A stretch of DNA of 61,450 nucleotides, taken from positions 1 to 61,450 of the forward strand of contig DATLYJ010000177.1 of NCBI GenBank assembly GCA_035574915.1. The letters are read 5' to 3'. The notes under the pieces are model-generated. The model was not told where the DNA came from. It was given only the letters and a program-made list of their open reading frames with translations, and ran no database searches. Made by a program: the position numbers and the translations under genes. This stretch comes from Dehalococcoidia bacterium (GTDB lineage: Bacteria; Chloroflexota; Dehalococcoidia; DSTF01; WHTK01). Positions 3,364 through 59,841 of the stretch are shown here, piece by piece; position 1 is the stretch's first letter, and every line of letters starts with the position of its first letter.

Positions 3364-4062
3364 GTGACAACGCTTGCTGAAGTCGTGTCAGCGGCCCGCT
3401 CGCAGGGACGCCGGCTCCTGAACGAGGTCGAGGCGAAGCAGGTGCTGGCCGAGGCCGGCGTGCCCGTCGTGCCGGCAAAGCTGGCGCGGACGCGGGACGA
3501 GGCCGTCGCCCTGGCGCGCGAGGCCGGCTTCCCCGTCGCCCTCAAGGTCGTCTCGCTCGATATCGCCCACAAGAGCGATGTCGGCGGCGTGAAGCTCGGC
3601 CTCGCCGACGAGGCCGCCGTCGCCGCCGCCTTCGACGAGATCATGACCTCGGCGAAGCAGGCGCAGCCTGACGCCCGCATCGACGGCGTCTCCGTCCAGG
3701 AGATGGCCGCGCCCGGCACCGAGGTCATCATCGGGGTGAACACGGACCCGCAGTTCGGGCCCGTGCTCATGTTCGGGCTCGGCGGCGTCCTCGTCGAAGT
3801 GCTCGAAGACGTCGCCTTCCGCATCGTCCCCATCGAGCCCCGCGACGCCCGCCACATGGTGCGCGAGATCAAGGGCTTCAAGCTGCTCGAGGGCTACCGC
3901 GGCTCGCCGCCGGCGGATGTCGCGGCCCTGGAGTCGCTGCTGCTCAAAGTCTCGGAGTTCGTCGACGCCCACCCGGAGGTGGCGGAGCTGGACCTTAACC
4001 CCGTGTTCGCCTACCCGGACGGAGCGGTGGCCGTGGACGCGCGCATCGTCCTGGCGGATTAG
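3364..4062 (+). CDS. ATP-grasp domain protein (acyl-CoA synthetase NDP-forming, beta-subunit-like)
   Basis: A 232-residue ATP-grasp_5 protein, the beta-type half of ADP/NDP-forming acyl-CoA synthetases, which couple acyl-CoA hydrolysis to nucleotide phosphorylation. Visible family marks are the N-terminal LLNEVEAKQVLAEAGVPVV helix, FPVALKVVSLDIAHKSDVGGV (nucleotide-binding strand and loop), a central GTEVIIGVNTDPQFGPVLMFGLGG segment split here as EVIIGV and PVLMFGLGG, and the C-terminal ELDLNPVFAY strand. Length matches a free-standing beta chain; no CoA-binding alpha domain is adjacent, so the partner must be elsewhere. The start is GTG at 3364. Composition returns to the strongly GC-rich pattern of housekeeping genes. 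Confidence 0.85.
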   Translation: MTTLAEVVSAARSQGRRLLNEVEAKQVLAEAGVPVVPAKLARTRDEAVALAREAGFPVALKVVSLDIAHKSDVGGVKLGLADEAAVAAAFDEIMTSAKQAQPDARIDGVSVQEMAAPGTEVIIGVNTDPQFGPVLMFGLGGVLVEVLEDVAFRIVPIEPRDARHMVREIKGFKLLEGYRGSPPADVAALESLLLKVSEFVDAHPEVAELDLNPVFAYPDGAVAVDARIVLAD

Positions 4063-32162: not shown

Positions 32163-32975
32163 CTAGCGACGCTGGTTGGCGATCACGGCCTCGACGACGG
32201 CGCCGATGGGTCCGCGTTCGTCGTGCAGGACCGCGGTCGAGACGGCGAGACCGTAAGGCTGCGCAGCGCGCAGAGTCTCGAACCCGATCCAGTCGCCGGC
32301 AGGGTAGCGGTGGAGGTAGAGGCTGATGTCGGCATTGATGAAGCCGGTCGGCGCCCGCCCTCCCATGTTGGTGAAGGCGTTCGTGAAGTCGGACACGGTG
32401 GCGGCGAGGACCAGGGGCGTGTTCTCCTCGCCCTCCACGAGCGGGAGGGGCAGCCGCACCCAGGCCCTGTTCCGGTCGGCCGGGTCGCCGCGATTGAGCC
32501 AGCGCACCTCGATTGTCGTATGCAGGCCGGTGCGGCCGAGAGCGGGAGGCGGAGGCGGGCCGCCGGGTGTCTGCGACCAGCCGCTCAGGTTCGATGCCGG
32601 CAGGCCATCCGGAGGCGGCAGCGAGGCCGCCGGCGGCTCGATAGCCAGCTCCTCATCGAGGCGTCTCAACAGGAGGGCGGTCGCCTTCGTGACCAGCTCG
32701 CCATCGCTCAGGAGGACTGCTTCGACCACATGGATACGGCCACCACGGCGCACGGTGGAGGCATGGGCCTGCAGGGGCGCATTCGGCACCGGCCGAAGGA
32801 GGTCGACAGTCAGCCGCGCGACCTGCAGGCCCGGGTCGTCGCTAAATTGCTGCACGGCGCGGGCAAGGAGGCCGGCCGCAGAGCCGCCATGAAGCTGGCT
32901 CTCGGACCACGGGCTTCGCGCGGCCTCGGTGGGGACAAAGCGCTCGCCGTCGAGGCGGAAGATGGCGTCGGGCAC
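32163..32975 (-). CDS. Acyl-CoA thioesterase family protein (4HBT_3)
   Basis: A 270-residue double hotdog-fold protein. Marks are ESQLHGGSAAGLLARAVQQF, VARLTVDLLRPVPNAPLQAH, RRGGRIHVVEAVLLSDGELV and, in the second hotdog, WIGFETLRAAQPYGLAVSTA followed by VLHDERGPIGAVVEAVI, as in TesB-like thioesterases that release fatty acids from CoA. The start is GTG 32975 (PDAIFRLDGERF follows); a much longer frame is open upstream but overlaps the EthD gene and is unlikely. No strong SD is visible. Confidence 0.85.
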   Translation of the reverse strand: MPDAIFRLDGERFVPTEAARSPWSESQLHGGSAAGLLARAVQQFSDDPGLQVARLTVDLLRPVPNAPLQAHASTVRRGGRIHVVEAVLLSDGELVTKATALLLRRLDEELAIEPPAASLPPPDGLPASNLSGWSQTPGGPPPPPALGRTGLHTTIEVRWLNRGDPADRNRAWVRLPLPLVEGEENTPLVLAATVSDFTNAFTNMGGRAPTGFINADISLYLHRYPAGDWIGFETLRAAQPYGLAVSTAVLHDERGPIGAVVEAVIANQRR

Positions 32976-33103
32976 AGGCGAAGCATATGGCGCGAGCGGG
33001 GCAGGGCCAAGTGCAGCGAGGCTAAACGGTTGCACTGCTGGCGCCGCCAAGGGCGAGCTGCCGGCCTGCTGCGAGGCCCTTCCGCCGCCGGACGCAGGCT
33101 GAC

Positions 33104-33484
33104 TCAATCGATCGGCGTCGCCGGCCCGATCATGTGCACCTCTTCGCCGCGCGTGATACAGGAGCGCGAGAAGTCGATGAAGTTGGCCTCGTCCTCGGCG
33201 AGGACGCGCGCGGCCTCGCGGCGCTCCTCGGGCGTGCCTGTAGCCTTCGCGGGGTCGATCCACCACTCCGCGATCCCGTCGTAGGGCTCCGGCATCTGGC
33301 CCCGGATCGGGTCTGCCGGCCGCTCGGCCGGCGGCGGCACTGCGTGGACCTGGATGTAGCGCACCATGCCGATCTTGGGCGCCCACTTGCGCACGAGCGG
33401 CCCGTGCACCTCCCGCCAGTACCGCTGGAACTCCTCCAGCGACATGCCGGGCTTTCGCCTCAGGACGTAAGCCGACTTCATCAT
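33104..33484 (-). CDS. EthD domain protein
   Basis: A 126-residue dimeric alpha/beta-barrel protein: KSAYVLRRKPGMSLEEFQRY, WREVHGPLVRK, RYIQVHAVPPP, YDGIAEWWIDP and an EDEANFIDFSRS segment, all typical of EthD (named for ethyl-tert-butyl-ether degradation; true role unknown, possibly dehydratase- or monooxygenase-like). It starts with tandem ATGs at 33484, GGAGGAGG upstream, and overlaps the end of the truncated acyl-CoA ligase gene. Such proteins often sit near CoA-ester catabolic genes. Confidence 0.88.
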   Translation of the reverse strand: MMKSAYVLRRKPGMSLEEFQRYWREVHGPLVRKWAPKIGMVRYIQVHAVPPPAERPADPIRGQMPEPYDGIAEWWIDPAKATGTPEERREAARVLAEDEANFIDFSRSCITRGEEVHMIGPATPID

Positions 33485-34869
33485 GGATAGGCCTCCTCCA
33501 CCTGTTTGTGCTCCGCGACACGCCGCAAATTCCGCGGTCCCACCCTTGCCTTAAGGGCGGTCCAGCCAGACCAGCAGCAGGCCGCCGCTCTGCGGCGCGG
33601 GTAAACGTTCTCGCCGCCGGAAATGATCATGTCCTTGACGCGGTCCTGGATGTAGACGTAGCCTTCGGCGTCCATGACGCCCGCATCGCCGGTGTGCATC
33701 CAGCCGCCGCGCAATGCGGCGCCGGACTCGTCCGGCAGGTTCCAGTAGCCGCGCATCATCTGTGGCCCCCGGACGATGATCTCGCCGATGCTTCCGGGAG
33801 CCAGCGGGCGGTCCTCCTCGTCCACGACGCGGATCTCCGTCCCCATGACGGCGCGGCCGGCAGAGGTTAGCAGATGCGGCCTGCCATTGAGCGCAGCGAC
33901 GTGATCGTCGGGGCTGAGGACCGTCGCGACGGCCGTGAGTTCGGTCATGCCGTAGGCCTGCATGAAACCGCAGCCAAACGTCTGCATCGCCGCCCGGAGG
34001 GTGCTCTCCGCAATCGGTGAGGCGCCGTAGGCGATGGAGCGCAGGCTTCGGTACTCGCGCTGAGCGACATCGGGGACGGCGACGAGGCAGGCCTGGATCA
34101 TCGCCGGCACCAGAGTGCAAGCGTTGATGTTGTCTTCGCTCAGGGCGCGCACGACTTCGGCGGGGATGAAGTCCTGGTGTATCACGGAGGTGCCGCCGGC
34201 GGCGACGGTGTCCAGCAGGCTGATGACGCCGGCCGCGTGGTACAGGGGGACGACGATGAGATAGCGGTCTCCGGGCTGGACCAACACCGAGCTGGTAAGC
34301 ACCTGCATGACGTTGGCGGTTACCGCGCGGTGGGTGAGCAGCGCCCCCTTGGGATGGCCGGTGGTGCCGCTCGTGTACATCTGGTAGGCGTCTTCGTCCT
34401 CCCGGACGTAGCGCTGCGGCGCTTCCGTCGAGGCCCCTGCGAGCCAGCCGCCGTAAGCCTCCCAGCCCGCCGGCGCGCTCTCGGCGAGCGCAACGAAGCG
34501 CCTCACGCCGCGAAGGCTGGTGCGAACGCCGTCGATTCCGGACGTGTACTCGGCGCTGGCGATCAGGAGCTTGGCGCCGGCATCGTTGATGATGTACTCC
34601 CATTCAGGTGGAGCGAGCCGGTAGTTAAGGGGTACTGGGACGAGGCCGGCCTTCGAGGCGCCGAAGTACATCAGGGCATAATCGAGGCTGTTCCGCGACA
34701 GGTAGGCAAAGCGCTCCCCGGGCGCGAGGCCGGACGCAAGGAGAGCGTTGGCGAGGCGGTTGCTCTCCAGGCGCGCCTCGGCATAGCTCATGCGCCGGCC
34801 GCCGTAGACGGCGAAGTCGTGTTGTGGCCGGACGCTCGCCTGGTAGTCGAGAAGGTCGTGTAACCGCAC
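33481..34869 (-). CDS. Acyl-CoA synthetase (AMP-forming), C-terminally truncated
   Basis: Class I adenylate-forming enzyme that should activate a carboxylic acid to acyl-CoA. The N-terminal domain is complete: A3 loop MYTSGTTGHPKGALLTHRAV, PLYHAAGVISLLDTV, YGMTELTAVATVL (A5), GWMHTGDAGVMD (A7) and DRVKDMIISGGENVYP (A8 hinge). Immediately after ENVYPR (residue 425) the sequence turns into about 37 unrelated residues (RAAACCWSGWTALKARVGP...), so the whole C-terminal subdomain with the catalytic A10 lysine is missing; 462 residues instead of roughly 510-550. Only about 120 bases separate this point from the EthD start, so no other frame can encode it. Probably inactive or adenylation-impaired. 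Confidence 0.85.
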   Translation of the reverse strand: MRLHDLLDYQASVRPQHDFAVYGGRRMSYAEARLESNRLANALLASGLAPGERFAYLSRNSLDYALMYFGASKAGLVPVPLNYRLAPPEWEYIINDAGAKLLIASAEYTSGIDGVRTSLRGVRRFVALAESAPAGWEAYGGWLAGASTEAPQRYVREDEDAYQMYTSGTTGHPKGALLTHRAVTANVMQVLTSSVLVQPGDRYLIVVPLYHAAGVISLLDTVAAGGTSVIHQDFIPAEVVRALSEDNINACTLVPAMIQACLVAVPDVAQREYRSLRSIAYGASPIAESTLRAAMQTFGCGFMQAYGMTELTAVATVLSPDDHVAALNGRPHLLTSAGRAVMGTEIRVVDEEDRPLAPGSIGEIIVRGPQMMRGYWNLPDESGAALRGGWMHTGDAGVMDAEGYVYIQDRVKDMIISGGENVYPRRRAAACCWSGWTALKARVGPRNLRRVAEHKQVEEAYP

Positions 34870-34952: not shown

Positions 34953-36521
34953 TTAGCGCCAGGCAGGCGCGTGCGAGAGCCGGTCCGCCTCTTCTCTCAA
35001 GGCGGCGGCGCGCCCGCCGAGCAGGGGCGCGAGGACGTCCAGGACGGCATGCGCCTCCCGCGGGCCAAAGTCTGGTTGCCAGACCAGGCGTGTGCGGCGC
35101 TGCACCAGGTCTTCGAGAGTGCGTGCCTCCTCGCGTACCAGGGCAAAGGCGAGCTGGCCGGCGAGGACGGGAGACGACTCGACGACGCGTCGAGTGTAGC
35201 GCTCGTCTGCCGCGATGAAGTCGAATGCTTCGCCTGCGCGGGGGCCGTACACGCCCTGGAGGTAGCGGTACAGGTCGAGGCGGTCGGTCATGACCGGCGT
35301 TGCCGGATACGTCTCGCGGAAAAACGGGGCCTTCCTGGTGGGCGAAGGCACGTGCGGGCGCCCGAGGACTCGCAGGAGGCGGTCGACCGCTTCCGCCGCC
35401 ATGTGGCGATAGGTCGTGTACTTGCCTCCGAGTAGCGTGACGAAGGCAGGCGGTGTGACGAAGACGCGGTGGCGGCGGGAGATCGCGCCAGCGTCCACCC
35501 CCGGCTTGTCGGGGGCGATCAGCGGCCGCAGGCCGGCGTAGGCGAAGGAGATTGACTCCTTCGATAGTCCTGAGTGGGGCAGGTATCGGGCGGCAGCCGA
35601 CAGGAGGTAGTCGACGTCCTCACTAGTGGGCTCGACGGCGTCGGGGTCGCCGTCGAAGGGCGTGTCGGTGGTGCCGACCAGCGAGCGGTCCGCCCACGGG
35701 ATGACGAAGAAGACGCGGTCGTCGGGGCCGGTCGGCAGGATGAGGGCGTCGTCCAGGGGCAGGCGGGGGACAACGATGTGCGCGCCCCTGGTGGGCCTCA
35801 GTTTCCCGCCTTCGAGCCCGGCCAGCCTTGCGACCTCATCGCCCCAGGGGCCGCCGCAGTTGACGACGGCCGCGGCGCTGACGCTGCCCTCATCGCCGTC
35901 GCAGCTCCGGTAGCGGACGCGGTAACCGCGATGCTCGCGTTCGATGTCCAGCACCTCGGTGTAGCTCCGGCATTCAGCGCCGGCCCGGGTCGCGGAGAGG
36001 GCGTTTTCGAGGCACATGCGGGCGTCGTCCATGCGGTCGTCCCAGTAACGGACGGCGCCGCGCAGCCCCTCACGGCGCAGCCCCGGGTTGGCAGCCAGGG
36101 CCCCAGCCGGCGAAAGCCGGCGGCTCCGCTCCACGTTGCGGAAGCCCGCGAGGAGGTCGTACACGGCAATGCCCAGGCGCACCTTCCAGAGTGGGTCGGG
36201 GTCGCCGTCGTAGACCGGGTAGAGGAAGCTCTGCGGCCAGACCAGGTGAGGCAGGAGCCGGCCGAGGATGTGGCGCTCCCGCTGGGACTCGAAGACCAGG
36301 CCAAACTCGTAGTGCTTGAGATAACGCAGGCCGCCGTGGGCGATCTTCGTCGACCGCGACGACGTCCCGCTGGCATAGTCACCCTTCTCGAAGAGACACA
36401 CGGAGAGCCCGCGCAGGGCGGCATCGCGCGCGACGCCCGTACCGTTGATGCCACCGCCGATCACTACGGCGTCGAAATGACGGCCGTCGAGCGGAGGCCG
36501 CCGCGGCGCGCCAGCGGTCAT
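34953..36521 (-). CDS. glpD: Glycerol-3-phosphate dehydrogenase (FAD)
   Basis: A 522-residue flavoprotein that oxidises glycerol-3-phosphate to dihydroxyacetone phosphate and passes electrons to quinone. The FAD dinucleotide fold reads FDAVVIGGGINGTGVARDAA; family signatures GTSSRSTKIAHGGLRYLKHY, VVNCGGPWGD, WADRSLVGTTDTPFDGDP and LLGGKYTTYRHMA are all present, followed by a C-terminal helical domain. The start ATG 36521 overlaps the glpK stop as ATGA. Length matches GlpD; the protein is probably peripheral to the membrane. The pair provides glycerol catabolism or lipid-backbone turnover. Confidence 0.95.
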   Translation of the reverse strand: MTAGAPRRPPLDGRHFDAVVIGGGINGTGVARDAALRGLSVCLFEKGDYASGTSSRSTKIAHGGLRYLKHYEFGLVFESQRERHILGRLLPHLVWPQSFLYPVYDGDPDPLWKVRLGIAVYDLLAGFRNVERSRRLSPAGALAANPGLRREGLRGAVRYWDDRMDDARMCLENALSATRAGAECRSYTEVLDIEREHRGYRVRYRSCDGDEGSVSAAAVVNCGGPWGDEVARLAGLEGGKLRPTRGAHIVVPRLPLDDALILPTGPDDRVFFVIPWADRSLVGTTDTPFDGDPDAVEPTSEDVDYLLSAAARYLPHSGLSKESISFAYAGLRPLIAPDKPGVDAGAISRRHRVFVTPPAFVTLLGGKYTTYRHMAAEAVDRLLRVLGRPHVPSPTRKAPFFRETYPATPVMTDRLDLYRYLQGVYGPRAGEAFDFIAADERYTRRVVESSPVLAGQLAFALVREEARTLEDLVQRRTRLVWQPDFGPREAHAVLDVLAPLLGGRAAALREEADRLSHAPAWR

Positions 36522-58687: not shown

Positions 58688-59088
58688 GCCGCCATCATAG
58701 GCGGCGGCGATCGCCGGAGAAAACGCAAGGCCCGGGGGGAGCGGACCCGGGCCCTGCCGCTTCATCCTTCCGAAGAAGGACTAAGCGCCTTGTGAGCGCC
58801 CCGAGGGGCGGTCGCGGCTCTCGCCGCTTCGTCATACTAGCACCGGCGGCCCCATTTTGAACATAAGCGACGCCGGTCTGGAGAACGCAGACTAGTACCG
58901 GCCTCGCGCCTTGTCAACTACGTCCGGCCTCTGGCAGTTGCCCTCTGCCAGCATGAGCCAGAGGGCCGCCGCCTGCCGAAGCCCTGGCCCATCCTGCCTC
59001 GTGGCCCGCAGCTCTGCCCTCCGCCTCCCAAGGCCAATGCCTGACGCGCGGCGCCGGCCCCGATACCATGCGGGCGGGAGGTGCTCAC
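58688..59088. other. Divergent intergenic region with hairpins
   Basis: The gap between divergent NUDIX and TerC genes contains no protein gene. It holds a small perfect hairpin with a TTCG loop on the minus strand (58765-58780), the near-repeat ACTAGCACCGG/ACTAGTACCGG, and a stem GCCCTCTG / CAGAGGGC near 58939-58965. No metal-sensing riboswitch that I could recognise is present, although TerC genes are sometimes controlled by one. Confidence 0.5.

Positions 59089-59841
<753 letters not shown>

Follow-up and report, generated by a model that had tools for sequence, protein, structure and literature searches.

How does an AMP-forming acyl-CoA ligase come to end without its C-terminal subdomain, and where has that subdomain gone? 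The question is raised by one gene, here called A, in the window, by which we mean the whole 61,450-nucleotide stretch of Dehalococcoidia DNA that was analysed. Gene A and its surroundings, in the order in which the minus strand is read, are as follows.

34953..36521, minus strand: glycerol-3-phosphate dehydrogenase-like gene (DAO, DAO_C; Pfam), the upstream neighbour on the gene A side
33481-34869, minus strand: ligase ORF of 462 aa (translated frame)
33595..34869, minus strand: 5' part of gene A, AMP-forming acyl-CoA ligase residues 1-425, from a GTG start through ENVYPR (PF00501, 1.1e-85; 63% and 61% identical to two close full-length orthologues)
33481..33594, minus strand: out-of-frame read-through of gene A's frame into the tail of a second gene, B, and the spacer; the source of 37 'unrelated' residues, and no protein domain
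33104..33484, minus strand: EthD-domain gene with its own Shine-Dalgarno-like GGTGGAGGAGG (PF07110, 1.3e-22)
32163..33035, minus strand: acyl-CoA thioesterase (4HBT_3 / 4HBT_3C; Pfam) on the gene B side of the junction, 33035 being the edge of the scanned stretch

The truncation announced by the original prediction is real. PF00501 (AMP-binding) is the sole Pfam domain of the window ORF (residues 8-376), and the ANL core motifs TSGTTGxPKG, which we take to be the P-loop, and YGMTE, to which we likewise assign a presumed role in the core, are both visible, while no Pfam match to PF13193 (AMP-binding_C) occurs in its 462 aa. The A10 lysine of the ANL family sits in the C-terminal domain, and the predicted product should be a ligase core devoid of that residue, in agreement with the earlier claim that the A10-lysine domain is missing from the encoded enzyme. 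When bacterial and archaeal genomes were scanned for orthologues, 80 loci were returned, 21 of which were extended (L041-L060, L069), and every one of these 21 encodes a full-length protein of 518-523 aa. The orthologue alignment of the window ORF stops at residue 425 (ENVYPR), and the 37 residues beyond it diverge, as had been described, with no convincing match in the alignment with the two close orthologues. The proposed position of the break, at the hinge, stands only in part: the truncation does lie near there, but the A8 hinge region of the ANL family presumably falls ~12 residues earlier, and the break comes just within the beginning of the C-terminal subdomain rather than precisely at the hinge. 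The abutting EthD gene was also correctly noted, its ATG overlapping the TGA of the ligase ORF; this meeting is nonetheless an accident of gene A's frame being read through another gene's tail and spacer.

Looking for a free-standing AMP-binding_C domain, as had been suggested, was the decisive step: it turned up a lone domain on contig C103 of the same genome. Among the seven matches to PF13193 in this 183-contig assembly, the strongest lies at C103:23064-23288, and the remaining six are paralogues. No ligase core precedes the C103 frame, which stands alone and reads VVEDVLFSHPAVADVAVIGVPD...REPYWQGQTRRVAGS followed by a stop. It and the features needed below are these.

C103:23061-23351: 3' end of gene A, an AMP-binding_C fragment in an open frame of 97-98 codons (PF13193, 1.1e-25; 77-80% identical to the C-termini of most of the best-matching gene A orthologues)
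C103:23059-23061: reciprocal junction, 3-bp overlap GCG (sequence)
33595..33598 of the window, minus strand: window junction, 4-bp overlap GCGC common to A (end of the P codon plus the R codon) and B, with A on the 5' side and B on the 3' side (sequence)
33551..33598 of the window, minus strand: 3' end of gene B, its last 15 codons and stop (APQSGGLLLVWLDRP, stop), displaced from C103 (matches the ends of the G008 and G370 orthologues)

The fragment resumes at residue 426, exactly where the window part stops, and no residue separates the counterparts of the two parts in orthologues such as L041 and L042. The scores of the N-terminal and C-terminal parts are correlated (Spearman 0.87) over the 113 of 119 loci that match both, several of the 119 being repeat retrievals of one place. 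Full-length paralogues in the same genome (L002-L005) are only 39-49% identical to the fragment; a partial paralogue at a contig end (L006) reaches 57% over a short stretch, and another (L007) gave no match to it. Judged from these alignments, the C103 fragment is the displaced end of the window ligase. Contamination from another organism was considered as a source of C103 and rejected, as the fragment completes the window gene exactly. With PF13193 missing from the ORF and its counterpart displaced to C103, the window ORF is, on its predicted domains, a broken and not an intact member of the ANL superfamily acyl-CoA ligases (AMP-forming).

The place left vacant in the window is occupied by the end of another gene. 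Directly preceding the ligase C-domain on C103 is the 5' part of a small lipoprotein-like gene, gene B, whose frame loses sense at the junction, after ..VSIAVADA. Gene B was found in 3 of the 393 genomes of the class, its own genome counted, and both other orthologues are full length, that of G008 ending ..VALADAPQGGGVLLVWVDPVFQ and that of G370 ending ..IAIADAPQSGAPLLVWVDPFQLN, each followed by a stop; both read ADAPQ..LLVWVDP across the break. Their segments matching the window tail are APQGGGVLLVWVDPVFQ (G008) and APQSGAPLLVWVDPFQLN (G370), again each with its stop, and when the two tails were scored on both contigs the window junction came out best of 175,014 six-frame positions (108 vs 60 for the next). 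There the end of gene B runs straight across the junction (33598-33551) in a frame other than the ligase's; a fusion of the start of A with the end of B as a designed protein was considered and rejected on this difference of frame. Gene B (L001:957-1497 = C103:22520-23060) also carries a one-base deletion, between WAPG and PQALVRF, the resulting frameshift lying ~170 bp upstream of the junction, so that the gene is damaged twice; because of this frameshift it may already have decayed before the break.

Since the end of A follows the start of B on C103, and the end of B scored first at the window junction, the two contigs can be read together: the window is A-start plus B-end, C103 is B-start plus A-end, and the exchange is reciprocal, both displaced gene ends having been recovered at complementary positions. 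This overturns the precise internal deletion that the original prediction invoked, in which the hinge was joined to the gene's own end. Such a deletion would account for a truncated ORF with no domain loss upstream, but the tail in the window consists of frame-shifted codons from the end of gene B and it is C103, not the window, that carries the true ligase end (REPYWQGQTRRVAGS), which refutes it and leaves it a probability of practically nil.

A reciprocal exchange could still be a product of sequencing, with A and B intact in the cells and the joins made by chimeric library molecules or by a mis-join in assembly or scaffolding. The fragmentation of the assembly into 183 contigs and the further frameshift in gene B are compatible with this reading, which nevertheless would need two independent chimeras at reciprocal positions agreeing within ~2 bp, at breakpoints with no long shared sequence. 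Both contig ends that were tested have exactly 141 identical bp in common with another contig (the right end of the window with C154, that of C103 with C62), which suggests a de Bruijn graph assembly at k=141; the default k list of MEGAHIT ends at 141. A collapse over 4 bp would be unlikely in such a graph, which should not connect unrelated loci there unless reads carry the join. Neither the junction region of A nor the 58-aa segment of B has a second near-identical match in the assembly, the other AMP-binding_C matches being the six paralogues only, and neither contig ends at its junction, where a parental order that was also common should have caused a break. Given how improbable it is that two library chimeras arose independently at reciprocal places, and given that a k=141 assembly requires reads that carry the joins, we favour a real rearrangement over an artefact, one that probably took place in living cells rather than in the library, and consider an artefact unlikely.

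As to how a real rearrangement would have arisen, we propose that two double-strand breaks fell, one in gene A after codon 425 and the other in gene B ~15 codons before its stop, and that the broken ends would then have been joined crosswise by non-homologous end joining, which would yield the two reciprocal hybrids found, A-start with B-end in the window and B-start with A-end on C103. On a single chromosome the simplest form of this event would be an inversion, which is probably the topology and which requires A and B to have lain on opposite strands. With the intact-parent letters at both junctions reconstructed from orthologue alignment, the net loss over the two is ~2 bp. The overlaps of 4 and 3 bp suggest the use of microhomology but do not prove it, because they are not rare by chance: in 200,000 random joins of both contigs an overlap of at least 4 bp occurred in 2.8%, and of at least 3 bp in 7.4%. 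GC skew offered no useful change at the junction. The genome encodes Ku adjoining a full LigD (phosphoesterase PE, ligase and primase-polymerase domains) on contig C57, and so has machinery at hand for joins with few repeats and small losses; short overlaps, a ~2-bp loss and a Ku/LigD-bearing genome are together what an NHEJ-type junction would present, and Ku/LigD may well have made the A/B join. All in all, A and B were in all likelihood broken by a rearrangement, probably an inversion, that was closed by non-homologous end joining. The locus on C57 (L141:653-5205) deserves mention in its own right as a complete bacterial NHEJ pair, LigD and Ku, in an uncultured Chloroflexota genome.

A programmed, reversible inversion that swaps the ends of A and B as a phase switch would equally give a reciprocal exchange with both products present. 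It would call for inverted repeats or recombinase sites at both ends, and no repeat pair was found when the contigs were compared within 1.5 kb of the breakpoints, where inter-contig matches are short and weak (E 0.026 for the best, 20 bp at 90%) and the breakpoints share no repeat; with an overlap of 3-4 bp only and a net loss of ~2 bp, which is not conservative, we give a switch of this kind only the slightest chance, and the end-joined rearrangement is retained.

Gene order in relatives was consulted for the arrangement before the break; in a set of 40 genomes, none shares the genus and only one (G001) shares the family. Neither flank pair was kept together, either when 14 junction-flanking proteins were compared with the relatives' loci by tblastn or when all frames of at least 80 codons from both contigs were compared with 14 stretches from relatives. 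EthD homologues occur in 15 of the 40 genomes searched, the own genome counted, and none was seen beside gene B, G008, which has both, carrying them on different contigs. In the window's own lineage the EthD gene probably lay downstream of gene B originally. On contig C53 of G001 (L144/L145), the sole same-family genome, a homologue of GSDH, B's neighbour on C103, and a 79% homologue of window 58957-59838 lie ~9 kb apart, possibly a trace of an older gene order.

What remains of the ligase is most likely a recent pseudogene whose function has been lost, because the A10 lysine is missing from the window core and no start signal is evident for the detached C-domain. A working split enzyme, whose N-terminal core and C-terminal domain would be made separately and act in trans, might be proposed from the fact that each of the ligase fragments is an open frame free of other lesions and that the C-part opens with two GTG codons (GTG GTG). 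No Shine-Dalgarno sequence is evident upstream of the C103 fragment, however, gene B is reciprocally damaged, and a split gene occurs in 0 of the 21 extended orthologues; these features make the detached domain look like a fragment moved out of place and lacking its own start, rather than a dedicated partner protein, and a functional split appears exceedingly improbable. If true, a two-piece ligase would mean that an ANL enzyme had been divided naturally a little beyond its hinge. That the lineage holds either a reversible switch or two ligase halves assembling from separate loci into a working enzyme is, taken as one proposition, highly improbable, and we keep to the reading of gene A as a pseudogene. 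Elsewhere in the window (3364-4062, plus strand) a 232-aa protein amounts to one ATP-grasp_5 domain, complete and standing alone (301.9 bits), which resembles the small-subunit type of acyl-CoA synthetase (NDP-forming).

The finding has a practical side, in that a reciprocal junction in the same assembly can fully explain an apparently 'domain-less' enzyme, and it guards against the annotation of a new class of C-domain-free ligases. If real in cells, it also offers an example of a rearrangement junction that is clean and free of repeats, in an uncultured Chloroflexota genome that bears Ku and LigD. Literature searches on ligases without the C-terminal domain returned nothing beyond NRPS papers, those on a ligase split at the breakpoint of an inversion returned none, and those combining LigD, microhomology and inversion returned no matching report.

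Among relatives, the ligases of Chloroflexi RBG_16_68_14 (L041) and Dehalococcoidia PFL39 (L046) are ~61-64% identical to window residues 1-425 and, in their C-termini, 77-79% identical to the C103 fragment; both are single intact genes of 521 codons, whereas gene A is split over two contigs. Genes split by chromosomal inversion are known from Pseudomonas aeruginosa, where one report describes rbsC in HCF324 and, in strains C4 and C12, the PA2252 orthologue (PMC10040652); as with gene A, the 5' and 3' parts lie at opposite breakpoints of the rearranged segment. The breakpoints given there carry IS6100 (rbsC, HCF324) or a transposon, whereas the A/B junctions have no long shared repeat, and unlike those cases A and B swap ends directly, gene to gene (PMC10040652). 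In Salmonella LT2, spontaneous rearrangements include inversions at short homologies, the confirmed junctions having >10 bp of microhomology, against 4 and 3 bp at the A/B junctions (PMC3411829). Set beside these systems, the A/B case is an ordinary instance of genes split between inversion breakpoints, without a long shared repeat at its junctions.
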